Shown here piece by piece: positions 8,091 to 36,291 of a DNA stretch of 64,000 nt (position 1 is the stretch's first letter; each line of letters starts with the position of its first letter). Source of the DNA: Nitrospira sp. (GTDB lineage Bacteria; Nitrospirota; Nitrospiria; Nitrospirales; Nitrospiraceae); NCBI GenBank assembly GCA_005116745.1, contig SWDS01000001.1, positions 62,001 through 126,000 of the forward strand, in the 5' to 3' direction. Made by a program: the position numbers and the translations under genes. The notes under the pieces were generated by a model that was not told the origin of the DNA, did not search any database, and saw only the letters and a list, made by a program, of their open reading frames with translations.

Positions 8091-10908
8091 TTCCCACCCC
8101 TTCGTGCATCGTCTTCGTCTCGGGACCAACGTCATTCGTAATATGTAAACGCCGGTTTACGATGAACTTCCGCCCCTCCTCCGCCGACAAGAGTGCTAGC
8201 GCCCCGAACACGAGTGGTCCGAAGATCCAGAGAGGCAAGGGGCTGGTTCCAAAGATCTCGTTCCCGATCGGTGTGTAGGTAATGAGCGCCAAGATGATCA
8301 GCTCGGTGAGAATCCCCCACAGAATGAACGGGTTGGTCAGCCATCCGAGTCGAGCCACCGACAGATGGTCGGATCGGCAGGCGAACACGTTCGCGACTTG
8401 TGCGAACACGATCCCGGCGAAGGTGACGGTTGTTGCCTCCCTATACAATGGAGAGGACCAAGCCAGGGTTTCTCCCCACGTCCACCCCTGACTGTTGAGA
8501 TAGAGGAAGAATCCTCCCATCGCGATCTCTGCTTCCATGAGCCCGAGGAACAAATAGGCCCGCAGCAGGATGGGGAGGCTCAGCAGTCGTTCGCTTCGTG
8601 GGCGCGGTGGAAGGTTCATGACATCGGATTGAGGCCGCTCTATCCCGAGGCCCAGGGCGGGGATCATGTCGGTTCCGAGATCGACTGCCAAGACTTGTGG
8701 AATTGTGAGGGCTAGCGGCATGCCGAGGAAACCATAGCCGAGAAATGGGACTATTTCCGGGACGTTGCTCGCCAGTATGTAGGACGAGAATTTGCGAATG
8801 TTGTCATAGACAGTGCGGCCTTCCTCAATCGCACTCACGATCGTTGCGAAGTTGTCGTCGAGCAGTATCATGTCGGCCGTTTCTTTGGCGACATCCGTGC
8901 CGGTGATGCCCATCGCGATGCCGATGTCGGCTTTCTTGAGAGCCGGCGCGTCATTGACTCCATCGCCGGTGACTCCAACCACTTCCCCCATCTCCTTGAA
9001 TGTGGACACGATCCGCATCTTGTGGCGCGGGGCCATCCGGGCAAAGACCGGGTCCGGTTCTCCTGGCCGAGACGGGGTCAGCAGCTGGCGGAGTTGCTCG
9101 TCGCTCATCTGATCAAGCTGCGGCCCTTCGATGACCGGGACGAAACTGTTCGGTGGCGATACAGCCTGTTCAGGAACTAGGCCGATCTTGCGTGCAAGAG
9201 CCAATGCCGTGAGCGGATGGTCTCCGGTGACCATGACGATGCGGACACCGGCTCTTCGACATTTCCTGATGGCCTCAGGCACTTCTCGGTGCGGCGGATC
9301 CATCATGGCCACGAGTCCGAGGAACGTCAGGTCTGATTCAATCGTGTCCACTTCAATGTGATCAGGCTGATGGCCGACTTCGCGCATGGCGACGGCGAGC
9401 ACGCGGTAGGCCTGCTCGGCAAAGGATCGGCTCTGGCTCAGGATGCGCGTGCGCTCATGCGAGGTCATCGTTATGGCATTGCCATGGACGTGAGCGTTAG
9501 CGCAGAGAGGTAAGATCGATTCCGGAGCGCCCTTGGTGAATGCGATGAGTCGTCCTTCTGCCCAATGAAGGGTGCTCATCCGCTTCCGATCTGCATCGAA
9601 TGCCAACTCCCCCATGCGCCGCAGGGGAGGCCGGTGGGCCAATCCATGTTCGATGGCAAATTCCAGCAACGCAACTTCCGTCGGATCGCCGGTGACCACG
9701 AAACGTCCATCGGACTTCCGGACGCGCTTGGCGTTGTGGCAATGAAGCAGCGCATCGAAGAAGGAACGCCATTGCTCAGCATCGACTGTACCGATCATGC
9801 GGCCTCTGGTGAAAAAACAACCCTCTCGTGAGTCGATCACAAGTCCGTCGGTGAAGAATCGATCCACTTTCATGCGATTTTCTGTCAATGTCCCCGTCTT
9901 ATCCGTGCAAAGCACCGTGGTGCAGCCGAGGGTCTCAACGGAGGGCAGGTGCTTGATCAACGCGTTACGCTTCGCCATCCGAAGGCTGCTCATGGCAAGG
10001 GCGAGCGTGACGGTCGGGAGCAAACCCTCCGGCACGTTGGCCACGATGATGCCGATGCCGAAGATCGCACTGATCCAGAATCCGAGTCCCGTTGAGGCAC
10101 CGATCACGAAGAACGCGGCTCCCATGGCCAATGAAATGACACCGACGATACGGGTGACCGTAATGATCTCTTGCTGAAGAGGGCTGAATTCGGTTTCGAC
10201 TGTGGTGGTGAGTGCGGCGATCTTGCCGAACTCCGATCGCATCCCAGTGGCGAAGACGACGGCACGACCATGTCCCGATAAGATGGTGGTGCCGGCAAAC
10301 ACGAGATTCGGAAGGTTGAGCCAGTGTCCGTCTTGTGTGGCCTCGGCTATCCGTTGTTTTGGTCTTGATTCGCCGGTCAAGGCGGCATTGTCCACCCGCA
10401 TGCCTATCGCTTCGATGAGGCGCGCATCGGCCGGCACCCGTTCGCCTTCCTCTAAGATCAGCACATCGCCGGGCACGATGTCCTTCCGTACGGCTTCGAC
10501 GGATTGCCCGTCTCTCGTGACCCACGCTTTGCTCGGCAGCAGGCGGCGGAGTGCCTGAACGGCGTGTTCCGCTTTGTATTCCTGGAAAAAAGCGAACCCG
10601 GCGTTGATGATGATGACGCCGAGGATGGCCCAACCCAGCGTTGCCATACCCTCACCGGGTCGCATGAAGTCGGCCGCAAAGGAAAGGCCGGCGGCGATCC
10701 AGAGGAGAATGGCGAGGAAGTGGGTGAAATGGCGGAGGAGTCCACGGAGGAGCGAGTAGCGATCCGGCTCGATGAGAACATTCGGCCCATATTGCCCCAA
10801 TCGCCGTTGAGCCTCATCGGAAGACAATCCACCGTTGCTAGTTTCCAGCCGTTTCAGCGCATCTTCGGTCGGAAGCTGGTGAATGTCGTGATGGCTGAAC
10901 TCAGGCAC
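8080..10908 (-). CDS. Cation-transporting P-type ATPase (P2, Na/K- or Ca-type)
   Basis: 942 residues, full length. Visible motifs: the actuator loop TGES, the phosphorylation site DKTGTLTEN (Asp about 336), the hinge TGDGVNDAPALKKADIGIAMG, and an N-terminal cation-ATPase domain. The helix-4 ion-site segment reads NVPEGLLPTVTLALA; VPEGLL is the form seen in Na,K/H,K-type and archaeal relatives, whereas SERCA/PMR1-type pumps normally have AIPEGLP. Substrate therefore leans to a monovalent ion, but this is an inference. The start codon overlaps the preceding tandem-USP gene by eight bases, so the pair is co-transcribed and translationally coupled, suggesting stress-linked ion extrusion. Confidence 0.88.
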   Translation of the reverse strand: MPEFSHHDIHQLPTEDALKRLETSNGGLSSDEAQRRLGQYGPNVLIEPDRYSLLRGLLRHFTHFLAILLWIAAGLSFAADFMRPGEGMATLGWAILGVIIINAGFAFFQEYKAEHAVQALRRLLPSKAWVTRDGQSVEAVRKDIVPGDVLILEEGERVPADARLIEAIGMRVDNAALTGESRPKQRIAEATQDGHWLNLPNLVFAGTTILSGHGRAVVFATGMRSEFGKIAALTTTVETEFSPLQQEIITVTRIVGVISLAMGAAFFVIGASTGLGFWISAIFGIGIIVANVPEGLLPTVTLALAMSSLRMAKRNALIKHLPSVETLGCTTVLCTDKTGTLTENRMKVDRFFTDGLVIDSREGCFFTRGRMIGTVDAEQWRSFFDALLHCHNAKRVRKSDGRFVVTGDPTEVALLEFAIEHGLAHRPPLRRMGELAFDADRKRMSTLHWAEGRLIAFTKGAPESILPLCANAHVHGNAITMTSHERTRILSQSRSFAEQAYRVLAVAMREVGHQPDHIEVDTIESDLTFLGLVAMMDPPHREVPEAIRKCRRAGVRIVMVTGDHPLTALALARKIGLVPEQAVSPPNSFVPVIEGPQLDQMSDEQLRQLLTPSRPGEPDPVFARMAPRHKMRIVSTFKEMGEVVGVTGDGVNDAPALKKADIGIAMGITGTDVAKETADMILLDDNFATIVSAIEEGRTVYDNIRKFSSYILASNVPEIVPFLGYGFLGMPLALTIPQVLAVDLGTDMIPALGLGIERPQSDVMNLPPRPRSERLLSLPILLRAYLFLGLMEAEIAMGGFFLYLNSQGWTWGETLAWSSPLYREATTVTFAGIVFAQVANVFACRSDHLSVARLGWLTNPFILWGILTELIILALITYTPIGNEIFGTSPLPLWIFGPLVFGALALLSAEEGRKFIVNRRLHITNDVGPETKTMHEGVGTTS

Positions 10909-11806
10909 GGGCGCCTCGTACGATCAGCACCGAACAGGGGGCATGTCGGAGCAGGCTTTCAGAGACGCTACCGAGGTAGAGTCTCTCGCTCTTCGTCAAA
11001 TCGCGGGATCCGATGACCAAGAGTTCGTCCCGATTGGCTTCTATGTGTTTGACGATGGTTTCAATGACGTGGTCTATCTGGACCTGCGTCACGACCAGAA
11101 AGCCATCCTTAATGAACGCATTCCGTACATTGTTCACGAGCGCGGCGGCCCGCTCCATGACCGGCTTCGTCAATTCGGCCAGCTGCGATTCGGATAAGTA
11201 GCGGGCGGCAAAGTCCGTGACGGGACTCTCCACTGAAGAGAGAATCGTGACGGTGGCGGTCTCTGGAAGAAGGTAGGATCGCAGAAACTTCGCGGCGGCC
11301 CGTGACGGTTTGGAGTCGTCGATGGCGAGCGTGACATGGAGAAGTTTGTGCGTCGGTTGTTTCACCACCCACACAGAACAGGGAGCCATCGAGGCAACTT
11401 GGCGCGAAATACTTCCCAATAAGAACCCTTGAATATCGCTGAGTCCACGCGATCCCATGATGATCAGATCCGCCTTCACGCGACGCGCTTCTCTGGCGAT
11501 GGTCTTCGCCAGTGGGCCATGAGCCAAGATGGTTTGAATGGTTGAGTGCGGCGCCGTGGCTGCTTGACCAAGAGCGACGTGAGCCGATCGCGCCGCCTCC
11601 CGGAGCAGACTCCCTCCTGCCTTTTCCATGGCCGCCAGAACTCGGCGCTCCCGGACGGGATTCTTCCCGGCGAGCGCTTGGAGAGCCCGCTTGTCGATGA
11701 CATGCAGGAGCGCCACTTGTTCAGGCTCTCGGCTGGCCAGCGCCTCAAGCGCCTGGACCCCCCACTGGGAATGTTCCGACCCATCGACCGCACATAAGAT
11801 CCGCAT
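10901..11806 (-). CDS. Universal stress protein, two USP domains
   Basis: 301 residues made of two UspA-type domains. Domain 1 begins MRILCAVDGSEHS and has the full ATP-binding pattern G-2x-G-9x-G-S (GSRGLSDIQGFLLGS). Domain 2 ends with GSRDLTKSERLYLGS, where the second Gly of the motif is Asp, so nucleotide binding there may be weakened. A strong GAGGAGGGG ribosome-binding site precedes the ATG. It lies first in a two-gene unit with the P-type ATPase, overlapping by eight bases. Cytoplasmic; the family adjusts survival under growth arrest or energy stress. Four more USP genes lie at 38.7-45.8 kb. Confidence 0.92.
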   Translation of the reverse strand: MRILCAVDGSEHSQWGVQALEALASREPEQVALLHVIDKRALQALAGKNPVRERRVLAAMEKAGGSLLREAARSAHVALGQAATAPHSTIQTILAHGPLAKTIAREARRVKADLIIMGSRGLSDIQGFLLGSISRQVASMAPCSVWVVKQPTHKLLHVTLAIDDSKPSRAAAKFLRSYLLPETATVTILSSVESPVTDFAARYLSESQLAELTKPVMERAAALVNNVRNAFIKDGFLVVTQVQIDHVIETIVKHIEANRDELLVIGSRDLTKSERLYLGSVSESLLRHAPCSVLIVRGARA

Positions 11807-12188
11807 GATCGCTTCCCCTCCTCGGCGAAGGTGATTGTGTGGAAATCATTCTGGGTATCAGACCTGCATTGGATGTGCCTATGAGAAGATGGCGTATAAA
11901 GGAAGAATGGGCCCTCTCCCAATGAGTTAATGAGTTATGGAGGGAGGCGCTCTTTTATTTCTTCGAAGTGTTGCAGCGTTTTGCAGCAGGAGCAGATGAT
12001 CGACTGTGGTGTTTCGCGTCAGTTGAGCTTCTAGACGACTCAAATTGATCAGGATCGAGTCCGGTACACAGAGTGTCACCCAGTCTTCGCTAGTCAGAGA
12101 ATCGGAGCTTGGTCATTCGGATCGCCGAGGACTGATATTTGGTAACGACGAGGGGGCAAATCCTATCGGAAGGACCTAAGGAGGAACG
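11807..12188. other. Divergent intergenic region, USP (left) / CBS (right)
   Basis: No gene is seen. The region must hold promoters for the USP-ATPase unit (minus) and the CBS pair (plus). A short repeated word, GTTGCAGC/TTTGCAGC, occurs near 11973-11995. An FNR/CRP-like palindrome is annotated separately. A GGAGG ribosome-binding site lies just before 12189. Confidence 0.5.
12045..12058. promoter_or_regulatory. FNR-like operator candidate
   Basis: TTGAT-CAGG-ATCGA matches the FNR/ANR consensus TTGAT-N4-ATCAA at nine of ten arm positions. It lies about 130 bp upstream of the first CBS gene and about 240 bp from the divergent USP gene. Oxygen-responsive control of these stress genes would fit the family, but a single 14-bp match can arise by chance. 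Confidence 0.35.
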
Positions 12189-12635
12189 ATGGAAAAGGCG
12201 AAAAAGGCGAAGAGGGGTAAGGTCGTTAAAGCCAAAGACTTTGAGTCCATGACAGTTAGTCAGGTCATGGAGAAGGAAGTCCAGTCCGTTCGTCTGAGAA
12301 CGAAGGGAGATGTGATTGCGTCGCTCATGATCGAGGGCTTTGGGGCCGTCCCGGTCGTCGAGAATGGGCGCAAGCTGACCGGTATTGTCAGCGAACATGA
12401 TTTACTGGGGGCGGTAGACGATGGTCATCGACTTGGCGCGGTTTTGGCGAAAGATGTCATGACTTCCAACCCCTACTCAGTCAGGCCTGAAACGACGCTC
12501 GGAACGTTGGTCCATGTGCTACGCGTAAGCGATTTGGTTCGCGTCCCAGTCGTGGATGACAAGGATAAATTGGTCGGTATCATCGCGAGGCGCGATGTCT
12601 TGCGAACCTATCTCGCCACTGGCGGCAAACGATAA
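12189..12635 (+). CDS. CBS-pair domain protein, copy 1
   Basis: 148 residues: a Lys-rich N-terminus of about 20 residues followed by two CBS motifs. The first has VSQVMEKEVQSV...GAVPVVENGRKLTGIVSEHDLL, the second AKDVMTSNPYSV...RVPVVDDKDKLVGIIARRDVL. CBS pairs bind adenosyl ligands (AMP, ATP, SAM) and act as energy sensors; no effector domain is attached. A strong AAGGAGG site precedes the ATG. The second CBS gene follows after 13 bases, and the two products probably pair or act together. Confidence 0.88.
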   Translation: MEKAKKAKRGKVVKAKDFESMTVSQVMEKEVQSVRLRTKGDVIASLMIEGFGAVPVVENGRKLTGIVSEHDLLGAVDDGHRLGAVLAKDVMTSNPYSVRPETTLGTLVHVLRVSDLVRVPVVDDKDKLVGIIARRDVLRTYLATGGKR

Positions 12636-12648
12636 CAGTGAGGAGCGT

Positions 12649-13083
12649 ATGAGACAAACCGAATTCTTTCTGAAGGCCTGCGATCCGAAGACCTTGACGG
12701 TGGGACAGCTGATGCAGGACGCCGTCACACGATGCACGTCGCGCACTGACGCCTCGGCGATCGCCCACATGATGACCCATCGGAACTTTGGGAGTCTTCC
12801 GGTCGTGGAAGATGATGGCACATTGGTCGGGATTGTGACCGAATATGATCTCCTCCAGGCCATGCTGGAGGGGCGTGATCTTAGAAAGGTTCTTGCGACT
12901 GAGATCATGTCGGTCCATCCCGTGACTGTGACAGAGGATCAAACCCTTGCCCAGGTAGCCGATCTATTCCAGAATCGCTATTTGACTCGTGTCCCGGTTG
13001 TCCAAAATAACAAGCTGGTGGGGATTCTTGCCAGGCGAGATCTGTTGTTCGGTTATATGAAGGCGTCCCAGTATTGGTCCTAG
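12649..13083 (+). CDS. CBS-pair domain protein, copy 2
   Basis: 144 residues from the ATG at 12649, which has a GAGGAG ribosome-binding site; an upstream in-frame extension would overlap copy 1 and is less likely. Two CBS motifs are seen: VGQLMQDAVTRC...GSLPVVEDDGTLVGIVTEYDLL and ATEIMSVHPVTV...RVPVVQNNKLVGILARRDLL. It differs from copy 1 by lacking the Lys-rich head. Role likely ligand sensing for an unidentified partner; the adjacent transporter at 13126 is a candidate target (inference). Confidence 0.88.
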   Translation: MRQTEFFLKACDPKTLTVGQLMQDAVTRCTSRTDASAIAHMMTHRNFGSLPVVEDDGTLVGIVTEYDLLQAMLEGRDLRKVLATEIMSVHPVTVTEDQTLAQVADLFQNRYLTRVPVVQNNKLVGILARRDLLFGYMKASQYWS

Positions 13084-13125
13084 CAGACTGTTGCAGCTTA
13101 TATTGACCGTACTTTCAAACTAACT

Positions 13126-14184
13126 ATGGGTCGCGGCAACGTCAGCTTTCTCTCCTTGTCCCAGTTTATCCATCATCACCTGCTCTGGCTGTTGATCGGC
13201 GCCTACACCCTCTCTGCCATCTGGCCAACCGCCGGCCTCTGGATTCGAAACGTCAGTTTCGGCGATCTTCGAATCGTCAATGAGAACCTGCATATTTCTC
13301 TTCTCCTGCTCTTGCTGGCCACCTTGATGTTCAATGCAGGGTTGGGGGTCAAGACTGCGCACCTCAGATCATTGACCAAGAAGGTAGGGGTCTTGTTTGC
13401 GGGGCTCACCGCGAATCTCGTCATCCCCATGGCCTATATCTTTCTGGTCACCCTTATCATGCGGCTGTGGTATGAGCCGGAGGAAGCCCAACACATCCTC
13501 GTTGGGTTGGCGTTGGTGGCGTCTATGCCGATTGCCGGGGCCTCAACCGCCTGGGCACAAAACTCAAATGGAAATCTAGCGCTGAGCTTAGGATTAGTCC
13601 TCGCCTCGACCATCCTCAGCCCCATCCTGACGCCTATCGCCCTGTATACGTTCGGGGAGATGGCTACGGAGGAATATGAGGCGGTCATACACACACTCGC
13701 TGCGTATGGATCAGGAGCGTTCCTGGGGCTCTGGATCGTATTGCCCTCTCTGCTGGGCCTTGCGGTGCGCTTCGTGGCGCCTGAAGCCCAACTAACGGCC
13801 ATCATGCCGTTCATCAAACTGATCAATGCAGTTGTCTTGTTGCTGCTGAACTATTCGAACGGATCGGTGTCCCTTCCTCAAGCCATCGCGGACCGAGATT
13901 ATGACTTTCTGGCGGTGACGCTGGCCATCACTGCGGGCCTCTGTGTCACGGCCTTTTCCTCTGGTTATGGGTTGAGTCGATTGTTCAAGGTCGATGAGGC
14001 TGATCGCGTCTCGCTCATGTATGGATTGGGGATGAATAACAACGGGACCGGGCTGGTCTTGGCCTCTCTTGTGCTTGGCTCGTATCCACGAGTCATGGTC
14101 CCCATCATTCTGTACAACCTGGTGCAGCATCTCGTGGCAGGAGGCGTGCATGAAGTGACAGGCCGGACCATTGGGAAGCAATAG
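13126..14184 (+). CDS. Bile acid:sodium symporter family (BASS/SBF) transporter
   Basis: 352 residues with about nine to ten hydrophobic segments. The segment VGLALVASMPIAGASTAWAQNSNGN followed by LALSLGLVLASTILSP corresponds to the conserved SBF helix-4 core with its crossing Asn/Ser-rich motif, and YGLGMNNNGTGLVLAS to the matching core in the second repeat. The family imports organic anions with sodium in the inner membrane; the substrate here is unknown and bile acids are unlikely in a free-living organism. It begins 42 bases after the second CBS gene and may be regulated by it. Confidence 0.8.
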   Translation: MGRGNVSFLSLSQFIHHHLLWLLIGAYTLSAIWPTAGLWIRNVSFGDLRIVNENLHISLLLLLLATLMFNAGLGVKTAHLRSLTKKVGVLFAGLTANLVIPMAYIFLVTLIMRLWYEPEEAQHILVGLALVASMPIAGASTAWAQNSNGNLALSLGLVLASTILSPILTPIALYTFGEMATEEYEAVIHTLAAYGSGAFLGLWIVLPSLLGLAVRFVAPEAQLTAIMPFIKLINAVVLLLLNYSNGSVSLPQAIADRDYDFLAVTLAITAGLCVTAFSSGYGLSRLFKVDEADRVSLMYGLGMNNNGTGLVLASLVLGSYPRVMVPIILYNLVQHLVAGGVHEVTGRTIGKQ

Positions 14185-25979: not shown

Positions 25980-27068
25980 ATGCCGATGTTACGCAGACCA
26001 GCCCTGGAGCGCTATCTCCAGACCCGCTTTGGCCCAACGGCGCGATTGTTGTCCTACGGAGTCATCGGGAAAGAGAGTTCCAAGGGAGAGCAAAAACGGT
26101 ATGGGTATGGCACACCCGTCAAATTGACGTTCCGAGTCGGGCGGCTGGTTCAGTCCGCAGTGCTCGAAACGATGAAGCCGGGTCCGTTCGGGCACGAACA
26201 TATGGCCGATCGCGCCCAGGCGATACTGTGGGACTACGACTCCTATGGACGTCTATCACACCATGTGAAGGCCCTCGATGTGGGCGCCTTCGACGCCAAC
26301 CAGGCGCTCTTTTCCCTCGCGGAGGCCCGTGAGTTTTTCGTGCTGAATGAATGGACCGATGGCGCAAGCTATCATGCGGATCTTGCACGACTGGCAAAAG
26401 GCGGGAGATTACGAAAGTTAGACCGGCAACGGACCGTCGCGTTGGCTCGTTACTTGGCTCAAATCCATGCCAAGAAACGGCGAGACGCTGATCTTTACAA
26501 GCGTCGGTTGCGTGAATTAATCGGTCACGGCGAATGCATCATGGGGTTGACCGATAGCTATCCCAAGCGTTGTGGCTTTATCACAGGCGATCTGTTGCGA
26601 ACGGTGGAGGAGGTCTGCAACCAGTGGCGGTGGCGCCTTCGAGACAAGGTCAATCGTCTTTCCCAGGTTCATGGGGATTTTCATCCCTACAATGTGCTGT
26701 TCCGTACCGGGGAGGATTTTGCGGTGTTGGATCGATCACGAGGGGAATGGGGCGAGCCGGCGGACGACGTGACCGCGATGACGATCAACTATCTCCTGAA
26801 CTCATTGATCAGCCGGGGCAAGCTCCAGGGGTCGTTCGAGATCTTGTTCCGATTGTTTTGGGACACCTATGTAGAGGTCAGCGGCGACAAAGAGGTTATG
26901 GAAACGGCTGCGCCGTTCTTCGCCTTTCGCGGCCTGGTCGTGGCCAGCCCGCTCTGGTATCCCAATCTGTCGATCGACATCCGACGCAGCCTCTTCCGTT
27001 TCATTGAAAACGTACTCGATGCGCCGCGCTTTGAGCCGGAACGGGTGAATGAGTATTGTGGACTCTAG
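25980..27068 (+). CDS. APH-family phosphotransferase-like kinase
   Basis: 362 residues with the aminoglycoside-phosphotransferase/choline-kinase fold. The catalytic loop is VHGDFHPYNVLF (Asp of HGD as base, Asn as metal ligand) and the metal-binding Asp is in the AVLDRSRGEWGEPADD segment. The N-lobe lacks a textbook glycine loop. The substrate is unknown; a resistance role is not implied. It precedes an APS-kinase-like gene by 68 bp. In other bacteria a related APH-like domain occurs fused to a P-loop kinase, so the pair may be a split version (inference). Confidence 0.75.
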   Translation: MPMLRRPALERYLQTRFGPTARLLSYGVIGKESSKGEQKRYGYGTPVKLTFRVGRLVQSAVLETMKPGPFGHEHMADRAQAILWDYDSYGRLSHHVKALDVGAFDANQALFSLAEAREFFVLNEWTDGASYHADLARLAKGGRLRKLDRQRTVALARYLAQIHAKKRRDADLYKRRLRELIGHGECIMGLTDSYPKRCGFITGDLLRTVEEVCNQWRWRLRDKVNRLSQVHGDFHPYNVLFRTGEDFAVLDRSRGEWGEPADDVTAMTINYLLNSLISRGKLQGSFEILFRLFWDTYVEVSGDKEVMETAAPFFAFRGLVVASPLWYPNLSIDIRRSLFRFIENVLDAPRFEPERVNEYCGL

Positions 27069-27136
27069 AGTCCGTTACTCGCTAGCGGTTTGCCTCAATC
27101 GGTCGAACGCCCATGTCTATTCTTGCTGGCTGACCC

Positions 27137-27700
27137 ATGACGATTGAGGCTACATCAAAGGCTTTCGCCATCTGGCTCACAGGGCTGCCTGCGTCCGGAA
27201 AGAGTACGATTGCAGCCGCGCTGAAGCCAAAGCTGGAAGAGATTGGTCCTGTCGAAGTACTCGAATCGGATGCGGTCCGCAGAATGTTGACACCTCATCC
27301 GACGTACAGTGTTGCAGAACGGGATCTGTTCTATCGTTCGCTCGCGTTCATGGGTGCAAGACTGGTCGCTCATGGCGTCACCGTTATCTTCGATGCGACA
27401 GGCAACAGGCGGGCGTATCGAGACTTTGCCCGCAGCCTGATTCCTCAGTTCATTGAGGTCGCCGTGGAGTGTCCGTTGGAGCTGGCCATGCAACGTGACT
27501 ATAAGGGGACCTATCAGCGAGGCCAACAGGGAGAGTCCTCGACCGTGCCCGGGTTGCAAGATCCCTACGAAGCGCCGGCCCACCCTGAAGTGGCCATAGA
27601 CGCGACTGCGCTTTCCGCAAACGACGCAGCGAGGAAAGTGCTGGAAGTTGTGAAAGAGAAATTGGCTCAACGCGGAATCGTGTGGGTGATTTTCGCATGA
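27137..27700 (+). CDS. Adenylylsulfate-kinase-like P-loop kinase, 3' end rewritten by IS
   Basis: 187 residues. The P-loop GLPASGKST near residue 16, ESDAVRRMLTP, FDATGNRRAYR and the C-terminal LQDPYEAPAHPEVAID motif are those of APS kinase (CysC), though the usual DGD is ESD. It would phosphorylate APS to PAPS or a related nucleotide. An ISL3-family element has inserted six codons before the old stop: the current last twelve residues (LAQRGIVWVIFA) are encoded by the transposon end. Joining the flanks across one copy of the 8-bp duplication gives FNPLYS as the original tail (181 residues). The core is intact, so activity may survive. Confidence 0.82.
   Translation: MTIEATSKAFAIWLTGLPASGKSTIAAALKPKLEEIGPVEVLESDAVRRMLTPHPTYSVAERDLFYRSLAFMGARLVAHGVTVIFDATGNRRAYRDFARSLIPQFIEVAVECPLELAMQRDYKGTYQRGQQGESSTVPGLQDPYEAPAHPEVAIDATALSANDAARKVLEVVKEKLAQRGIVWVIFA
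27656..27663. repeat. Target-site duplication, left of ISL3 element
   Basis: GAGAAATT, identical to the eight bases at 29026-29033 on the other side of the element. Eight-base duplications are usual for ISL3-family insertion. Confidence 0.92.
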
Positions 27701-29025
27701 TCTGGGAGCGCGGGTAAGAAATGGGTGATGATTTTCATAGCCAAGTATTCCTCGTCGCGAAAGCCGTACGCCTTGCGCTGAATGACACGAATGGTGTTGT
27801 TCAATCCCTCGACGCAACCCAGCGAGACTTTGTTCTCGGGCTTGCAGTAGGAGACGATACCCTCCCAATGCCGTTCGATCATGGCCGCGAATTTCTCGAA
27901 GGGCTCAAGCCGCTGCCAGCGCAGGCTGCTCTTCCAGTTCTCGAAGAAGCGTCGCGCCCAGCCTTCGCACTCGTAGTCCCAGAGTTGGCCGAAGGATTCC
28001 TTGAGCAGGTAGGCGATGTTGAGCCGCTTGTTGGCTGCGAGCAGTGTCGTGAGCGCCTTCCTGCCATCGAGGTCCAGGTTGTCCCGGTGCGACAGCAGGG
28101 TATAACGGTTGCCCTTGATGAAGCGGCGCTGGTCACCCTGCACCCGTGCATATTCGCTCCGGCGCACCGCATCCAGGGCATCGTTCAGATGGCGCAGGAT
28201 GTGGAACTTGTCGAACACGATCTCGGCCTGCGGCGCATACGCGTGTGTCGCTTCACGAAACGGTCTCCACATATCCATCACCGCCACCTGAATCCCCTGG
28301 CACCGCCGTTCGCCGTAGGCCGTGAAGAACTGCTCAAGGTCTATCTGCTTACGGCCGGTACCACCGAACCAGATCGGCCGCTGCCCAACGAGGTCGCTGA
28401 CCACCACCCGGTACTCGTGCCCCTTGCGGATACTGATCTCATCCACGCCGATCGCCGTCGTGGCCGGCAGCGGATGCCGGCGCAGTTGCTCGGCCATATA
28501 CAACTTGTCCAGGTCCTTGACCGTGGTGTGATGCAGTCGCTCGGGCTCCGCCACATCCTTGACGGTCGTCTTGCGACACAACGCCCCCACATGCAGCGCA
28601 TAGCGGGCCGTGTAACGCGGGTTGTGGGCCAGCCAGTCCAGATACTCCATGCGAACTCCACAGTCCGGACAGCTTACGCGAACCCGCTCGAACTCCAGCA
28701 CGATGCAAAAGCCGCCGGCCGAAAGATCCCGCGTCCGCGTCACGCGCCGATCATAGACCGGGCAGCGAGGCCGGGCACAGCACGAACAGGTGCCGGTCTT
28801 TTTTTACGCCGCAATCGCACCACGCGCACATCCGGATCACCGAAAACACCCTTGAGCTGCGCGGCCGCGCTGAACCCAGGAAACGAATACAACTCACACA
28901 ACGTTCGTGCAGGCTTCATCGGTGTTCCCATACGGCAAGGAGTATAACCACATGAAAACGCTATCCTACAGCTACGAACCGGGGCAATACTACGTACAAT
29001 CGTTCACACGATTCCGCGTTGAGCC
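27664..29025 (-). mobile_element. ISL3-family insertion sequence, 1362 bp, complete ends
   Basis: The ends at 27664-27684 and 29005-29025 are perfect 21-bp inverted repeats beginning GGCTCAACGCGGAATCG, with weaker matching further in. Both flanks carry the same 8-bp target duplication (GAGAAATT). The transposase is on the minus strand and its stop overlaps the left repeat. Size, repeat length, duplication length and transposase all agree with the ISL3 family. The intact repeats and duplication mean the insertion is recent. It cuts the 3' end of the APS-kinase-like gene. Confidence 0.95.
27667..28931 (-). CDS. ISL3 transposase, split by a shift at an A7 run
   Basis: Read leftward, the first frame (start 28919 or 28931) gives FPGFSAAAQLKGVFGDPDVR and then RLRRKK at the run of seven A (plus-strand T at 28799-28805). 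A shift of -1, or one extra A, continues into the main frame with TGTCSCCARPRCPVYDRR, supplying the Cys-rich zinc finger, then IGVDEISIRKGHEY (DDE first Asp), VAVMDMWRPFREA (second Asp) and CVEGLNNTIRVIQRKAYGFR (Glu). The joined product of about 420 residues has the usual ISL3 length. It may be made by slippage on A7 or be inactivated by a one-base loss. Confidence 0.82.
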
Positions 29026-29033
29026 GAGAAATT
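29026..29033. repeat. Target-site duplication, right of ISL3 element
   Basis: GAGAAATT, the second copy of the eight-base duplication. The sequence after it restores the original APS-kinase-like stop (TGA at 29050-29052). Confidence 0.92.
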
Positions 29034-29107
29034 TAACCCACTGTATTCTTGAGCACTTCTCCTGCAACCGCCGATATGCAGCTGTGCGAGCAATCGTCCA
29101 ACGCTGC

Positions 29108-29137
29108 TTGATGAGGCTCTCTCCCGGTCGCTATAGT
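29108..29137 (+). promoter_or_regulatory. Candidate promoter close to SNF2 helicase start
   Basis: TTGATG (29108-29113) and TATAGT (29132-29137) are separated by 18 bp. Transcription would begin near 29144, two bases before the ATG at 29146, and no ribosome-binding site is visible, so a leaderless message is possible. Confidence 0.45.
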
Positions 29138-29145
29138 GTCGCACC

Positions 29146-32100
29146 ATGAGGAAGACACCTGCGTCCCGTCGCAGAGGGGGGGGGAGCCCCCTTTCTGACA
29201 CGAAGAAAAGCCCCTTCATTCCTACTCCCGCCTCGGCAGCCCTTGTTGCCGCATTTCGAGCTCTCGCCGTCAACGATCTGTACACGATGGCCCCGAAAGA
29301 GACAGCGCTCAGGGGATATGACTATTACCAGCAGCAACGGCTTCAGCACTATGTTTGGGGTAGGGACGGGGCGACGCTCACGGCGCAGGTGCAGGGAACC
29401 AGCCTGTATGAGGTTCTCTTTTCTCTCGACGAGGGGTTTCTCTCTTCGTTCTGTGACTGTCCGGCCTGGGATTTTGATCGGCTCTGCAAGCATATCCTTT
29501 GCGCCTGCTTTACTACCAAACATCTGCTGTCGCCCGAGACGGCCTCATTGTCGGATCGGCAACAAGTGCACCTGGCCGCGCGTCGCGTTGAGTTGCTCGG
29601 CGACCTTGCCGAGACAGGTTCCATCAAGGGGACGACCCCCTCGCGGAATGGGGAGGGTCTCCCTGGGTCGACCTATGAAATCGTGATCAACGTCGGCCGG
29701 CCATATCCGCAACTTGTGATCCATCGGAACGGTGTGCCGCTTCCCGCAGGATGGGTTTCCACGGTACCTCCCGAGTTGCGGCCACTCCAGAATCTACCCT
29801 GGTTTTCGTCAGGGTATGATGGGGACGAACCCTTCCAGCGCTATCTCCAGGTCTCTAAGCGCCGGTTCCCGATCGTGCTGAAAGCCGGCCTGGAATCTAT
29901 CGCCCTCGAATGGACCCCGTTGGTTACCTGTCGGAGCAAAACCGAGATCGCTCTTGCCGGTGATGACGTAAAGATCCGCGCGGTCTGCATAGCTGACGGA
30001 ACGGCGCTCGACAGAATCGTTCGGTTTCGCGGCTTCGTAGTCGACGTGAGTGGCCGCCGCTTGCTCTGCTTGGAGGACGAAAGCGGGTGGACTTCGTTTC
30101 GTGCGTTACGCAACGGTTTCCAAGGTTCCAACGCTGCTGATCCTGGGGGCGGTCCGGTCGGGACGTTGTGCGCGGTGACCTTACCGGACGGTCGGGGCCA
30201 TGGGCGATGGCAGGGCATTGATTATGAAGTGGAGTTCACCGTCCCACGGAAGGAGTTCCAGTCCGCGCAGATCGATCTGATCCAGAAACAGGCCGACAAG
30301 ACCTTGCGTGAACTTCTGCTGCGCGCGGATGGGGAAGAGGCGCCGGTTCATTCTTCTGACTCGATGTCGGTGGGCGAGGAGGTGTCGTACGCGTTGATTC
30401 TGGCGCCGCTCCCAGACGAGGCCGGCGCACCGACCGCCGCATGGATGCTACGGACGGAATGCCGGCGTGGTGACGCCCGGTTTATTCCGAGTGCCTCGAC
30501 CTTTTCCTTCATCCGGGCGTTGGAGCAGGGGCGCACTATATCGGCCCCGTTGCGGGCACAAAAACGCAAGGGTGTGCTCTACGATCTATTCTTCACGTCG
30601 CTCACGGTCGGCGAGGCCAAGGAGCGAGATCTCCGCATTAAGACGGCGCTGGATCAGAGCGATTGGGCGAGGAGCATCCGTCTTGAAGCCGCTCAATGGC
30701 TGAGACACCATCTGTCGGTGTATGCCGGTCAAGATGTACGGTTGCAGGTCGAAGGGAGGCGATGGACACTTCACGCGATCGACAAACACCGCGAAGTATT
30801 GCTGTACCGGATTCCATTCGAGGTCTTCGGTCTGGACGCGTTTCACGGCATGCCCTCGTATGACATGATGAAAATCGATTCCCGCATACTGTTTCAACGA
30901 TTGCCGGAGCTGTTGGAAAAGCTGGCGGCAGCCGGGATTGCATTGCTGTATGAAGACAAACCACTCCGGCCCATTCGGTGGGACTGCGCGGTCCACGTGG
31001 AACGTCAGGACCGTGAGGGGATCGGGATCGACTGGTTCGAGATCCGGCCGGAGATTCGCTGCGATGGGGTGGTGATTGATGAGACGGAGTGGCGGGCGGC
31101 CATCCGGCAGGGCGGAATGATCGACACTGGGAACGGTCTGCGGGTCTTGGATGGCCAGACCATGGAGCGGTTGCGCGCGATCATCGGTCTCACAGGTGAT
31201 GCGCCGGAGGATCGGAAAGCAGCGCACGTCGTGCGTGTGCCTCGGTTGCAGATCTTTGATTGGCTGGCGCTACGCGAGCAGGGTATTCCTGTGTCGCTGC
31301 CAGCCGAGGACGAGGCGGTGTTGGCGCGCTTGCTGGGATTTGAGCGGATCGAGCCGCTGCCGTTGCCGAAGACCCTGCACGCGAAGGTGCGCTCCTACCA
31401 GCATGACGGCTACGCCTGGCTGGCATTTCTCTACGAGCATCGATTCGGTGCCTGTTTGGCGGACGATATGGGATTGGGCAAGACCCTCCAAACTATCTGT
31501 CTGCTGGCCGCCATCAAGGAGGGACGTATCAAGACGGCTTGTGGGGTGAAGGGCCCCCATCTGGTCGTCGTCCCGACGAGTATTCTTTTCAACTGGGAAC
31601 AGGAGCTGGCGCGCTTCGCACCAGGTTTGAAGGTTCATGCGTATAGCGGGAGCGAACGGACCTTCGATGCCGGGGACGGCGAGGTGGTGCTCACGACCTA
31701 TGGGTTGGCCCGTCGGGATATCGACACTTTAGCGCGGACGGCGTTCCATGTGATCGTGTTCGACGAAGCCCAGGCGGTGAAAAACATTCAGGCGAACACG
31801 ACGGGTGCGGTCCGTCGGCTCCAGGGTCGGTTCAAGATCGCGTTGACCGGCACGCCGCTCGAAAATCATCTCGGCGAGTATTTCTCCGTGATCGACCTGT
31901 GTGTGCCGGGACTCCTGGGCGAATACGATCGCTTCAAAACCGATCTGAAACGTGTGGCGGGTCACACGCTCGATCGGGTGCTGCGACGGACGCGGCCCTT
32001 TATTCTGCGTCGGACCAAGGCCGAGGCCCTCCAGGACCTGCCGCCAAAAATCGAGCATGAGATGTTCCTCGAGTTGACCGATCGCCAAAAAGCGCTCTAT

Positions 32101-32781
32101 CAACAGACGGTCGACCAGGTGCGCTCAACGATCGACGACGCCTATCGCACCAAGACTTCCGGGCAGGCGCAGTTTATCGCGCTCACGGCCATCCTCAAAC
32201 TGCGGCAGGTCTGTCTTTCGCCTCGCCTTCTCACGAATCAGGCTAATGAGACGTCGCCTAAGCTCAGCTTTCTGATGGAGCGGCTCCAACTCTTGCGTGA
32301 CGAGGGACACAGCGCCCTCGTATTTTCACAGTTCACAAGTTTTCTGGATCTTGCCCAGGAAGCATGCATTCGGCATGGGCTGTCCTACCACCGGTTGGAT
32401 GGGTCCACGGCACCGGCTGCGCGCAAGGCCCGCGTGACAGCGTTTCAGACCAGTGAACAGCCGAGCGTGTTTCTCTTGAGTCTCAAAGCGGGAGGGCAGG
32501 GGCTGAATCTCACCAAAGCGAGTTATGTCTTTCATCTGGACCCCTGGTGGAATCCGGCGGTGGAGCGTCAGGCGTCGGACCGCGCGCATCGCATCGGGCA
32601 ACAGCAGACCGTCACGATCGTGCGGATTCTCATGCGCCACAGCATTGAGGAGAAGATGATGGCGCTCAAACAGCGCAAGCTCGAGTTGTATGATGCGGTC
32701 ATGGCCGGCGTGGTGCGAGACTCCGGGCAAGGCGTGCTGACGAAGGCCGACTTCGACTTCCTACTTTCGCCGAGTGCCTGA
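29146..32781 (+). CDS. SWIM zinc-finger SNF2-family helicase
   Basis: 1211 residues. A SWIM zinc finger lies at about 103-116 (C-x-C-x8-C-x-H in CDCPAWDFDRLCKH). A long middle region follows, then the SNF2 ATPase: motif I DDMGLGKT near 773-780, motif II DEAQ near 873, GTPLENHLGEYFSV, and the helicase C-lobe with RLDGSTAPAARKA, SLKAGGQGLNLTKA and DRAHRIGQQQTV. Proteins with this layout are Rapl/HepA-like DNA or RNA-polymerase remodelling translocases of unknown exact role. Codon use matches the chromosome, so it is probably a resident gene. Its end overlaps the next gene by eight bases if the GTG start there is used. Confidence 0.92.
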   Translation: MRKTPASRRRGGGSPLSDTKKSPFIPTPASAALVAAFRALAVNDLYTMAPKETALRGYDYYQQQRLQHYVWGRDGATLTAQVQGTSLYEVLFSLDEGFLSSFCDCPAWDFDRLCKHILCACFTTKHLLSPETASLSDRQQVHLAARRVELLGDLAETGSIKGTTPSRNGEGLPGSTYEIVINVGRPYPQLVIHRNGVPLPAGWVSTVPPELRPLQNLPWFSSGYDGDEPFQRYLQVSKRRFPIVLKAGLESIALEWTPLVTCRSKTEIALAGDDVKIRAVCIADGTALDRIVRFRGFVVDVSGRRLLCLEDESGWTSFRALRNGFQGSNAADPGGGPVGTLCAVTLPDGRGHGRWQGIDYEVEFTVPRKEFQSAQIDLIQKQADKTLRELLLRADGEEAPVHSSDSMSVGEEVSYALILAPLPDEAGAPTAAWMLRTECRRGDARFIPSASTFSFIRALEQGRTISAPLRAQKRKGVLYDLFFTSLTVGEAKERDLRIKTALDQSDWARSIRLEAAQWLRHHLSVYAGQDVRLQVEGRRWTLHAIDKHREVLLYRIPFEVFGLDAFHGMPSYDMMKIDSRILFQRLPELLEKLAAAGIALLYEDKPLRPIRWDCAVHVERQDREGIGIDWFEIRPEIRCDGVVIDETEWRAAIRQGGMIDTGNGLRVLDGQTMERLRAIIGLTGDAPEDRKAAHVVRVPRLQIFDWLALREQGIPVSLPAEDEAVLARLLGFERIEPLPLPKTLHAKVRSYQHDGYAWLAFLYEHRFGACLADDMGLGKTLQTICLLAAIKEGRIKTACGVKGPHLVVVPTSILFNWEQELARFAPGLKVHAYSGSERTFDAGDGEVVLTTYGLARRDIDTLARTAFHVIVFDEAQAVKNIQANTTGAVRRLQGRFKIALTGTPLENHLGEYFSVIDLCVPGLLGEYDRFKTDLKRVAGHTLDRVLRRTRPFILRRTKAEALQDLPPKIEHEMFLELTDRQKALYQQTVDQVRSTIDDAYRTKTSGQAQFIALTAILKLRQVCLSPRLLTNQANETSPKLSFLMERLQLLRDEGHSALVFSQFTSFLDLAQEACIRHGLSYHRLDGSTAPAARKARVTAFQTSEQPSVFLLSLKAGGQGLNLTKASYVFHLDPWWNPAVERQASDRAHRIGQQQTVTIVRILMRHSIEEKMMALKQRKLELYDAVMAGVVRDSGQGVLTKADFDFLLSPSA

Positions 32782-33739
32782 GCATGGAGGACTGTGGCTG
32801 TTGTTGGACTCAAGCGACATGGATACGAATCTTGGAAAATTTGGGTTCTTGCCGATCGACAGAACCATTTCGTTTTCAGGTGGAGCATTCTCGCTGCGCG
32901 AAGATTTCAATGAGGTGCTTGCTGTAGTTAGATCAGCTACAAACGCTGACGGGTTTGTCTATCCTCCGCTCGAAAAACAAATGCGAGGAGAGCCCAGAAT
33001 CCTAGCCGGACAACTCTTGCCAGAAGATCAATGGGATTGGAAAGAGGTTCTGGGAACTGAACGTCCCGCCCATCTACATCAGTTGCCGGTTTCCCATGAG
33101 CTTCGGTTAAAGCAGGCTCCCATTGATAACGATCTTAGAAGGAACGACGGAGCATTCTTGATGTATCTAGCAGGTTACCTCTATGGCTATCGGTTGCAAT
33201 TTCATGACTGGTGGTTCGATGGGCGAGTCAATATGAAGAAATCACACAACATACTTGTGGGGGACGATAAGGCTGCTGACTTCTTCTCAAAAAGCTATTC
33301 TGTCTGGAAAAACTGGTCTGTGGAGACCAGAAGACACTTCACGAACATTCTCTACATGACTTCCAGATTAGAGCTGTACGAATGGGATTGGGAAAAGTTC
33401 ATGATAGCCTACATGGTTTTTGACGCCTGCTATAACCAGGCGAAGGGGCTGGGGCAAGTTGAAAAGACAATACATAAGTTTCGAATTGATGCGATGTGTG
33501 AGCGATACAGTTTGCAGTGCAATAGCAGTCTGAGCAACGAGATTGTGAGGTTAAGAAATGCCTTGTTTCACGAAGCCCTATGGGACGGTGGCCAACCGTG
33601 CAGTTCAGGAGGGCAAAAGTCTTTTGGCTATACTAAGTGCTTGATGAGGATTAACCATCGCCTAATTCCCGCCATGCTTGGCTATTCTACCGAATACATT
33701 GGAACTCATTGGGATTCCTTTAGTCCCTGTCAATTCTAA
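32774..33739 (+). CDS. HEPN-like hypothetical protein (RNALFH motif)
   Basis: 321 residues from a GTG at 32774 that overlaps the SNF2 stop; an ATG at 32819 is the alternative. The C-terminal third is helical and carries VRLRNALFHEAL, whose R-x4-H (about residues 261-266) matches the HEPN signature of predicted RNases, preceded by a helix pair with MIAYMVFDACYNQAKG. The N-terminal half is a mixed alpha/beta region with many Trp residues and no recognised family. Composition is more AT-rich than in the helicase, suggesting later arrival. A HEPN domain would make it an RNase or nucleotide-binding protein; catalytic activity is an inference. Confidence 0.5.
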   Translation: MPEHGGLWLLLDSSDMDTNLGKFGFLPIDRTISFSGGAFSLREDFNEVLAVVRSATNADGFVYPPLEKQMRGEPRILAGQLLPEDQWDWKEVLGTERPAHLHQLPVSHELRLKQAPIDNDLRRNDGAFLMYLAGYLYGYRLQFHDWWFDGRVNMKKSHNILVGDDKAADFFSKSYSVWKNWSVETRRHFTNILYMTSRLELYEWDWEKFMIAYMVFDACYNQAKGLGQVEKTIHKFRIDAMCERYSLQCNSSLSNEIVRLRNALFHEALWDGGQPCSSGGQKSFGYTKCLMRINHRLIPAMLGYSTEYIGTHWDSFSPCQF

Positions 33740-33835
33740 ACCTGCGTCGATTCCCTTTACTCATTCGACTTGGGGTTCGCCGCTGGTTACAACGTGGCTG
33801 AGTGAAATCCGTTACGAGGGTGTGCACGGGTATTG

Positions 33836-33980
33836 TTAGAACCATTGCGTCGCATTCTCCGTCACCTGTTCCAGGGTGCCAGGTTCTTCGAAGAGGTGAG
33901 TCGCGCTGGGGACGACGATGAGCTTCTTTTCGCAAGTCAGGAGTTCTTCGAGTAGTGCGACGCCACTCTGAGTGAAAGAG
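33836..33980 (-). pseudogene. C-terminal remnant of an alpha/beta hydrolase
   Basis: On the minus strand the frame ending at TAA (33836-33838) reads ALLEELLTCEKKLIVVPSAT then HLFEEPGTLEQVTENATQWF. This is the last strand-helix unit, with the catalytic His, of a dienelactone-hydrolase-type protein and is clearly related to the remnant at 35670-36291. No upstream part exists here. The two copies lie in the same orientation on either side of the YgiT-Fic pair. Confidence 0.75.
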
Positions 33981-33995
33981 AAGTGGGTGGGAACG

Positions 33996-34241
33996 TCAGA
34001 AGTTGACGGCGGGTACGTCTAAGACTTGATCCGGCTGCTGGGCTCGTTCGAAAATTTTATGGAAGCTCTGATCCATGCGCCTGAGGACATCGGGGGTGAA
34101 ATGTTTCTCTCCGCACTGTTTGCAAACACCTGCTGGAACGTTTCGCAGGATGAGCAAGTGATCACGGCGACGATAGTCGTAGTTGATATGTCGTTCTTCC
34201 ACCTCGCCGCCACAGAAGGTGCAATCCGCATAGGTGGTCAT
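33996..34241 (-). CDS. YgiT/MqsA-type zinc finger protein
   Basis: 81 residues from the ATG at 34241. Two C-x2-C pairs (DCTFCGG and VCKQCGEKHF) form the zinc finger of YgiT-type proteins, which act as antitoxins of MqsR/DUF4258 toxins or as zinc-binding regulators; here the DNA-binding HTH of full MqsA is absent. The C-terminal region is a short helix (PDVLRRMDQSFHKIF). No toxin gene of the usual DUF4258 type lies next to it. It is downstream of the Fic gene on the same strand with a 104-bp gap. Confidence 0.72.
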   Translation of the reverse strand: MTTYADCTFCGGEVEERHINYDYRRRDHLLILRNVPAGVCKQCGEKHFTPDVLRRMDQSFHKIFERAQQPDQVLDVPAVNF

Positions 34242-34345
34242 GGCTTTGTTCCTCTGGTGCGGAGATCCGTCCATTTTGGTGGCTTTGGGATATATATGGT
34301 AATCACCCTCAGGGTTCTCTCAACCTGGTGTTTTAATGGTGCGGG

Positions 34346-35482
34346 CTACCGTTTGAACAGCCGCACGTAGTCATCGAAGATAAAGAGGCGATTACGCCTC
34401 TGACCGGTGAACTCCTTCAAAATGCCGAGCTTGACGAAGTCATCGATGAGCGCAGCGGCAGTGTTGGTTTCAGCCTGGATGAGGTTGGTCACCATCTTGA
34501 TGGTGGTCACCGGAGACTGGTAGAGCGATTGCATGAGTGTTTGCGCATTGGTCTGGCGGCGTACGTGGAACGTCGGCATATGCTTGCGTTCGATGCGTTC
34601 TTTCAGCGCCAGAATGTCCTTGAACACTTGGATAGAGAGGGCGATTGTCTCACGCATGCCGAGTAAAAAAAATCGCAGCCATGGTTCTAACTTGTGCGTC
34701 GTTCGGACAGCCATCAGTTGATCGTAATACTCGCCCTTGTGCCGCTCAAAGAAATCGGAGAGATACAGCGCGGGCTTTTGCAGAAGGTTGAAACTGACGA
34801 GATAGAGCACGATGAGCAGGCGGCCTAGGCGTCCGTTTCCGTCAAGAAATGGATGGATCGTCTCGAACTGGTAATGCATGAGCGCAACTTTGATCAGGTG
34901 CGGGACATGAATCTGGTCGTTGTGCATGAACTTCTCAAGATCGCTCATAAGGTCCGGCACATGCTGGTGGTGGGGAGGGATAAATGTGGCGTGCTTAAGG
35001 CTGATGCCGATCCAGTTTTGGCTGGTGCGAAATTCTCCTGGCTGTTTGTGCTTGCCGCGCACACCTTGTAATAGCACTGCATGGGTCTCGCGCAAGAGGC
35101 GGTTGGACAAGGGAATTTGACGCAACTGCTTGATGGAGAAATTAATTGCCTCGATATAGTTGTGTATTTCCTGCCAGTCATCGCGTTTTTCCGGATCGAC
35201 ATCGAGCTTACCGACCAGCGCCTCTTCAATGTTGGTCTGGGTGCCTTCGATACGGCTGGAGGTGGTTGCTTCTTTGGTGATGTGCATTCGGACGAAGAAA
35301 TCCACATCCGGGATGAGCTGAGAAAACGCGTTCAACTCCCCAATCAGACGGTTAGCCTCCTCCAGGAGAGTGAGAATCTCAGGATCGGATACGATCCATT
35401 CCCGGTTAATCGATGTGGGTGAAAAACTCCGATATTCATATTGTTGCTCGTACTCTCCTGCTTTGAATTCACTGATATTCAT
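34346..35482 (-). CDS. Fic family protein with N-terminal autoinhibitory motif
   Basis: 378 residues. The Fic active site is IHPFLDGNGRLGRLL (HPFx[D]GNGRxxR), so the enzyme should transfer AMP or another nucleotide to a target protein. An upstream SSRIEG motif near residue 77 fits the (S/T)xxxE(G/N) inhibitory helix of class II Fic proteins, whose Glu blocks ATP. The C-terminal 80 residues form a winged-helix domain (TTIKMVTNLIQAETNTAAAL). A cluster of palindromic half-sites lies just upstream and may be its own operator. It is followed by the YgiT-type gene. Confidence 0.9.
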   Translation of the reverse strand: MNISEFKAGEYEQQYEYRSFSPTSINREWIVSDPEILTLLEEANRLIGELNAFSQLIPDVDFFVRMHITKEATTSSRIEGTQTNIEEALVGKLDVDPEKRDDWQEIHNYIEAINFSIKQLRQIPLSNRLLRETHAVLLQGVRGKHKQPGEFRTSQNWIGISLKHATFIPPHHQHVPDLMSDLEKFMHNDQIHVPHLIKVALMHYQFETIHPFLDGNGRLGRLLIVLYLVSFNLLQKPALYLSDFFERHKGEYYDQLMAVRTTHKLEPWLRFFLLGMRETIALSIQVFKDILALKERIERKHMPTFHVRRQTNAQTLMQSLYQSPVTTIKMVTNLIQAETNTAAALIDDFVKLGILKEFTGQRRNRLFIFDDYVRLFKR

Positions 35483-35669: not shown

Positions 35670-36291
35670 TTACGGAAGCAGGTGCAAGTAGTGCAAGAAC
35701 CATCTGCTTGCCTGTTCCGCCACCTGTTCCAGCGTACCCGGTTCCTCGAAGAGGTGAGTGGCACCGGGGACGATGATGAGCTGCTTTTCGCAGGTCAGGA
35801 GTTCGTAGGCTGCCTGGTTCATCTCAATCACCGGTTCATCATGGCCACCGACGATCAACAGGGTCGGAGCTGTGACCGATGGTAGATAGGGTTCAGCCAG
35901 GTCCGGTCGCCCTCCTCGTGACACCACGGCCTTGACGTTCGCTGGCTCTCGTGCGGCAGCTTGCAATGCTGCTCCGGCGCCGGTGCTGGCCCCGAAATAA
36001 CCGACCTCTCAATCTTTCGTCCGTGGTTCCGCTTCCAGCCAGTAGATCGATATCGAATACCTTGCGCCGATCATCCGCGTCTTCTTCGGTCAATAAATCG
36101 AGCAGCAACGTGGCAAGTCCGTCTCGTTGTAACTGGCGGGCGACGAAATTGTTATGAGGGCTCAATCGCCCACTACCACTCCCATGTGCAAAGACCACCA
36201 TGCCGCATGGACTGACCGGGAGTCCGAGGATGCCCTCCAGGGTAATTGTCCATTTTGTGATCCTGACGCGGTGCTCGTGCAGGGATGTCAA
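35670..36291 (-). pseudogene. Alpha/beta hydrolase (dienelactone-hydrolase-type), broken
   Basis: The N-terminal part starts at a TTG (36291) overlapping the pentapeptide gene's stop and reads MVVFAHGSGSGRLSPHN... to FDIDLLA. The sequence then continues in another frame as IYWLEAEPRTKD, meets an in-frame TGA, and resumes as EVGYFGASTGAGAALQAA with the nucleophile motif G-x-S-x-G, followed by VGGHDEPV and ATHLFEEPG (Asp and His of the triad). So a short deletion with frame change and one stop have broken an otherwise complete gene. It belonged to the pentapeptide-repeat gene's operon. Confidence 0.82.

Follow-up and report, generated by a model that had tools for sequence, protein, structure and literature searches.

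A HEPN-type gene behind a SWIM-SNF2 helicase gene of Nitrospira, probably a horizontally acquired effector

A gene for a HEPN-like protein lies directly behind a SWIM-SNF2 helicase gene in the stretch of Nitrospira sp. DNA that we analysed (64,000 nucleotides of contig SWDS01000001.1, here called the window). We conclude that this gene probably encodes a stand-alone HEPN RNase effector that was acquired horizontally, was inserted behind the helicase gene and functions independently of it. Its relatives form an unannotated HEPN clade and belong to the HEPN effectors already known to be associated with restriction systems. The window comes from a genome of 3.86 Mb, and in a scan of genome contigs the closest named relative at the helicase/HEPN locus is Nitrospira sp. 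CG24B (locus L002, genome G404).

The helicase gene and the start of the gene behind it

The helicase gene (29146–32781, plus strand) encodes 1211 amino acids and matches in Pfam a SWIM domain (about 29407–29511), an SNF2 domain (about 31396–32226) and a Helicase_C domain (about 32266–32598). The identification as a SWIM-SNF2 helicase, made from the letters of the sequence alone, is therefore borne out, although the SWIM domain is barely over the Pfam cut-off (19.7 bits vs. 19.6). The protein carries the motif CDCPAWDFDRLCKH at residue 103, as well as DMGLGKT and DEAQ. Its SNF2 core is related to DISARM DrmD, Zorya ZorD and Dpd DpdE, and matches the PADLOC models of DpdE (E 8e-126) and ZorD (E 1.4e-102). 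However, the best matches to the models of these systems span chiefly the helicase core, and none of their recognised partners was found among the seven proteins scanned at 25980–35482; those beside the helicase were an APH-like kinase, an APS-kinase-like protein, an ISL3 transposase, a zinc-ribbon-like protein and a Fic protein. The top NCBIfam match, also over the core, is NF058637 for helicases of the SCO1167/SCO6262 family, but the score is 410 bits where the model requires 1200, which by this model puts the window helicase outside that family.

Just upstream of the helicase gene, at the 3' end of the APS-kinase-like gene, we also observed an intact ISL3-type insertion sequence (27664–29025) with its transposase on the minus strand (27667–28743). 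The element ends in 21-base terminal inverted repeats and is bounded by an 8-base target duplication (GAGAAATT); the alignments of loci L002 and L006–L009 cross the empty site.

The second open reading frame (32774–33739) is on the same strand as the helicase gene and, read from its first GTG, encodes 321 amino acids. The two genes then share the eight bases 32774–32781, from this GTG through the helicase stop, an overlap to which the sequence-only reading had drawn attention. This is true of the GTG-started frame, but it hinges on the choice of start, and three lines of evidence make the ATG at 32819, which lies 37 bases beyond the helicase gene, the likelier one. When the window is compared with its closest relative, L002, codons 1–15 of the GTG reading show five amino-acid-changing and no silent differences, and third positions account for only one of seven base changes there, vs. 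54 of 114 in the rest of the gene. The flank at 32782–32818 is similar, in register, to the helicase flank of 12 relatives that lack the HEPN-like gene, with a score reached by 17 of 2000 shuffles (14 of 2000 for L002); this register-restricted test is post hoc, as it was designed after an earlier, looser test of an ancestral flank that was not significant (56 of 500 shuffles for the window and 127 of 500 for L002). Finally, the GC content of these 37 bases is 57%, compared with 46.4% for the gene that follows. Each of these observations is suggestive and none is conclusive alone. Positions 32774–32818 on the plus strand, the overlap and spacer that the GTG start adds, are probably the 3' end of the helicase gene and ancestral non-coding flank rather than HEPN coding sequence, and the overlap is probably an artefact of taking the first GTG. 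The HEPN-like gene then spans 32819–33739 on the plus strand, an inserted single gene of 306 codons from the ATG. The differing base composition of the two genes, also remarked on earlier, was confirmed (60.0% GC in the helicase gene vs. 46.4%). A pattern scan found no plus-strand terminator between them, and with a shared strand and a gap of 37 bases co-transcription with the helicase is possible.

A HEPN-like domain in a divergent protein family

The HEPN assignment had been proposed on an R-x4-H helix in the product of the second gene. The motif is present, as RNALFH at residues 246–251 (33554–33571, plus strand). Alone, however, it is weak evidence, because half of the shuffled copies of the window protein contain at least one R-x4-H. 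More telling is its conservation: an alignment of 13 members (A2) that reaches down to about 20% identity has 14 invariant columns, R246 and H251 included. The R is followed by N in 11 of the 13, and by T in L050 and L051. An N in this place is also known from active HEPN families. The window protein thus has the HEPN motif in the form R-x(4-6)-H with a polar residue after the R.

Using AlphaFold2, we obtained a model of the window protein of moderate confidence (mean pLDDT 68.6, with block means of 68–92 from residue 151 to 250). When the model was aligned to 999 PDB chains, ranks 1–10 were all HEPN-type (Z 5.4–6.9, rmsd 3.0–4.3 over 108–125 residues) and the next row was an unrelated structure with a Z of 4.9. 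These matches place a HEPN-like helical domain at residues ~164–290 (33308–33688, plus strand); all have a Z below 8, a range in which the tool warns that a common arrangement may be the cause. The top ten include HEPN-MNT toxins and the HEPN domain of sacsin, and five of the ten titles say HEPN; 7bxo, 6m6u, 1ylm and 1ufb we take to be HEPN-type proteins as well. The entry 5yep is SO_3166, which is termed HEPN in PMC4621449. With Foldseek, the model had no match at E ≤0.001 against the PDB or against viral models. For the phage branch of the family, a second model (mean pLDDT 54.2) gave HEPN-type toxins, HEPN proteins or Csm6 at ranks 1–8, although its alignment also contained the window, L002 and L003 proteins and the result is not fully independent. 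The four-helix HEPN fold is therefore seen in predicted models, at Z below 8 and with four of the top-ten labels being our own assignment.

Relatives of the window protein are few. In a single-protein scan of genome contigs, which also covered genomes of phyla beyond Nitrospirota, they were L002 (83% identity) and L003 (37%, Ignavibacteria). A profile search matched 8 of 395 Nitrospirota genomes, including the window genome, CG24B and one decayed copy; searches by class gave 3 of 230 and 1 of 4, all of them members already known. We excluded the Nitrospirota match G374 (E 9.5e-4), which has two in-frame stops, from the alignments and from the counts of genomic context.

The family extends to phages and plasmids through phrog_5937, a group from P2-like phages with no annotated function. 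The PHROG scan matched it to residues 190–286 of the window protein only (E 8.6e-7), but a comparison of disjoint profiles, chromosomal (A6) against phage and plasmid (A5), aligned 273 columns with a probability of 99.3 and E 4.8e-20, giving homology over the full length. The comparison of A1 with A4 was dropped as circular, since A4 includes members of A1. Members of phrog_5937 have the same invariant R-x4-H at about 20% identity, but are without the RLQFxxWWxDGR stretch present in seven of eight chromosomal members. Single proteins detected this branch poorly: tblastn with the window protein gave three weak records from P2-like phages (E 0.005–0.09), and in plasmid searches the window, L052 and L053 proteins had no match while L003 had two weak ones (E 0.008 and 0.02), put in the family by phrog_5937. 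Scans of viral contigs found no relatives with A1, L052 or L053; the phage homologue found 30 loci and A2 found 27, mostly on the same contigs.

No curated model recognises these proteins. For the window protein, no HEPN or Apea profile matched in Pfam (E up to 1), NCBIfam or PADLOC, which was the check that the sequence-only reading had proposed. In Pfam at E up to 10 there was no family for L002 or L003 and no HEPN family for eight other homologues, another profile scan of members gave a single weak, unrelated match (L051), and PADLOC had no match for the members scanned, namely the family proteins of the window, L053, L043 and L047. Searches of PDB sequences with the window protein and with profile A2 also returned nothing. 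Although the profile check failed, the HEPN assignment stands because of the motif, invariant across a divergent family, and the HEPN-type structures that fill the top ten. The original guess was right, for weak reasons.

Genomic neighbourhoods of the family

We read a further six chromosomal loci in which the gene is intact (L003 and L049–L053, of which L050 and L051 are from one genus). An Eco57I-type restriction enzyme is encoded upstream of the HEPN-family gene in L049, L050, L051 (one gene between) and L052 (67 bases between); in L049 the two genes overlap by eight bases, provided that the HEPN-family gene starts at the ATG behind the listed GTG. The L049 and L052 enzymes match PADLOC models for type IIG and those of L050 and L051 were recognised by Pfam. 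Each of the four genomes contains only two to five Eco57I-domain matches, so the adjacency is well above what random placement would give (an estimated <1% per genome). In L003 an MmeI gene lies upstream with two open reading frames between. The sequence-only reading's picture of a HEPN protein beside a DNA-acting enzyme therefore fits the family elsewhere, with Eco57I and MmeI types and one DrmD-like protein, but not the window's helicase.

Some of these neighbours have features of their own. The type IIG enzyme of L052 (4582–8313) has a C-terminal Fic domain in Pfam, and the C-terminus of the L049 enzyme (9671–13624) matches PADLOC PDC-S04, as does that of L052. At 5022–11923 of L053, a gene for a DrmD-like SNF2 helicase is followed by the HEPN-family gene, with an 8-base ATG overlap (ATGAGTGA), and by a TmtA/sacsin-like ATPase in two overlapping open reading frames; this is a possible three-gene defence locus, as yet uncharacterised.

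Phage members stand alone at the gpQ–gpA region. L043 and L045 lie between the portal gene gpQ and the replication gene gpA, and L044 adjoins gpA at the end of its record. This region of P2-like phages is an anti-phage hotspot (Rousset 2022, PMC9122126; Vassallo 2022, PMC9519451). Of 5426 complete E. coli genomes, 90 contain a match to the L043 gene. The L043 locus also has a gene for 334 amino acids (4482–5486), placed between gpQ and the HEPN-family member, for which Pfam and PADLOC gave nothing at E 0.01. Both plasmid members likewise stand alone, one of them near BrnT/BrnA and RelE-type toxin–antitoxin pairs.

At least 16 HEPN clades have been linked to restriction-modification operons, and a second line of defence was proposed for them (Anantharaman 2013, PMC3710099). 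The window family shares with those effectors a HEPN-like domain, the R-x4-H motif and proximity to restriction enzymes, and the theme of restriction-modification, HEPN and Fic/Doc described there is echoed by the Fic domain of L052 and the PDC-S04 match of L049. Unlike them, its scanned members match no curated HEPN model, and the neighbour of the window gene is a SWIM-SNF2 gene instead of a restriction enzyme. Work on BREX also argues for second-line defence by backup HEPN effectors (PMC12839542). Our literature search found no description of the family, though it may be one of the published systems that contain HEPN domains: Vassallo 2022 reports remote HEPN similarity in six of 21 systems, and PMC13092281 includes four validated systems with HEPN domains, and either set possibly includes it. 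Since its relatives are mostly found near phage-defence genes, the window gene is probably a defence effector.

Insertion behind the helicase gene and possible function

We then asked whether the helicase and the HEPN-like gene belong together. The helicase was matched in 33 of 59 Nitrospira genomes sampled, of which 30, counting its own genome and some split over contigs, were read as orthologues; of the other three, one had fragments only and two had only core matches at 38–39%. The HEPN-like gene, by comparison, is present in 2 of 79 Nitrospira genomes, those of the window and CG24B. For most relatives the homology breaks off at the helicase stop, give or take a few bases, and it often resumes in a block of hydrolase and pentapeptide genes. 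We fetched this downstream slot from 20 other genomes among the 30, and the HEPN-like gene was absent behind the helicase in all 20. Nine slots have no other open reading frame of at least 90 amino acids before the block, eight have at least one of Mrr, Phd-ParE, Fic and DUF4258/MqsA-like genes, one has a histidine kinase and two (L129 and L130) are without the usual block. Visual comparison with similar copies tested in Pfam served to identify Mrr in L120 and L125, and likewise the toxin–antitoxin pairs of L122 and L127.

A conserved helicase gene followed by an empty or varied slot points to a small site of turnover, of which the HEPN-like gene is one cargo. Insertion is indicated by the end of helicase homology at the stop, the shift in GC content, the patchy occurrence (8 of 395 genomes) and the variable slot. 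The proposed coupling of helicase and HEPN protein is thus unsupported, and the neighbourhood survey found no conserved pairing; absence of a profile match and of a conserved neighbourhood, the two outcomes that had been named as refuting the idea, were literally what we found. Most probably the two genes are neighbours only because an insertion happened to fall here.

Further along the window, a 110-base piece of an alpha/beta-hydrolase gene occurs twice (33838–33946 and 35696–35804, 84.5% identical). Between the two copies are a Fic gene and a zinc-ribbon gene whose likeness to MqsA stays below the Pfam cut-off. This segment may be a second cargo whose insertion went along with a partial duplication. 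The hydrolase at 35670–36291 runs over two overlapping frames and is apparently broken; the L002 alignment is split as well.

Other explanations have to be weighed against an independent insertion. In a co-evolved module, the SWIM-SNF2 translocase would sense foreign DNA and release or activate the HEPN RNase. The shared strand, the tight spacing and retention in two Nitrospira species agree with this, as do family members that lie directly behind DNA-acting enzymes, with overlaps in L053 and, given the ATG, in L049. We nevertheless consider such a module unlikely: the helicase mostly occurs without a HEPN gene, none of the 20 other slots examined holds one, the neighbour varies, the overlap probably comes from a wrong start, and an arrangement common to both species is most simply one event. 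It is also doubtful that the family is a modular HEPN effector placed behind varied DNA-surveying enzymes (Eco57I- and MmeI-type restriction enzymes, DrmD-like and SWIM-SNF2 translocases), each controlling it, which acts alone against phages in P2-like phages and has captured the housekeeping-like Nitrospira SWIM-SNF2 protein as its sensor.

The two remaining alternatives concern the protein itself. A HEPN-fold toxin or stress RNase, selfish or serving a stress response and with no anti-phage role, would suit the Phd-ParE, Fic and DUF4258/MqsA-like cargo of related slots and the plasmid member that adjoins BrnT/BrnA and RelE-type pairs. However, the members read have no antitoxin-like neighbour in common, and both the P2 hotspot and the restriction enzymes that recur beside the family suggest defence, which leaves this explanation improbable. 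Very unlikely is a non-nuclease helical bundle that only resembles HEPN, as in the mannitol repressor MtlR: MtlR chains do appear at structural ranks 12 and 15, and the Z scores are modest, but the invariant R and H, the N after R in most members and the defence-like contexts all speak for a nuclease.

In the reading that we prefer, a single gene for a HEPN-type endoribonuclease effector would have been gained horizontally and have landed immediately past the stop codon of a SWIM-SNF2 gene that is conserved in Nitrospira. The small slot there is vacant in some sister species and in others carries different genes, frequently for restriction, toxin–antitoxin or Fic proteins. The N-terminal ~145 residues are probably sensing or regulatory, and would be followed by the catalytic HEPN domain with R-N-x3-H. 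On infection or stress the effector would cut host or phage RNA and growth would stop, as with other HEPN effectors, whose RNases usually act as dimers; family members beside restriction enzymes would serve as a second line of defence. We infer the horizontal acquisition of the gene, the RNase activity, the trigger and the anti-phage role of its product, and likewise that the protein functions without needing the helicase.

Two genes packed closely together in a single genome can thus reflect recent insertion rather than a functional operon. The family adds a HEPN clade that was missed by the family and defence models searched, and it ties a chromosomal, restriction-associated branch to a gene in the P2 anti-phage hotspot that has no name. 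Because the family occurs in E. coli genomes, standard laboratory phages can be used to test its function.
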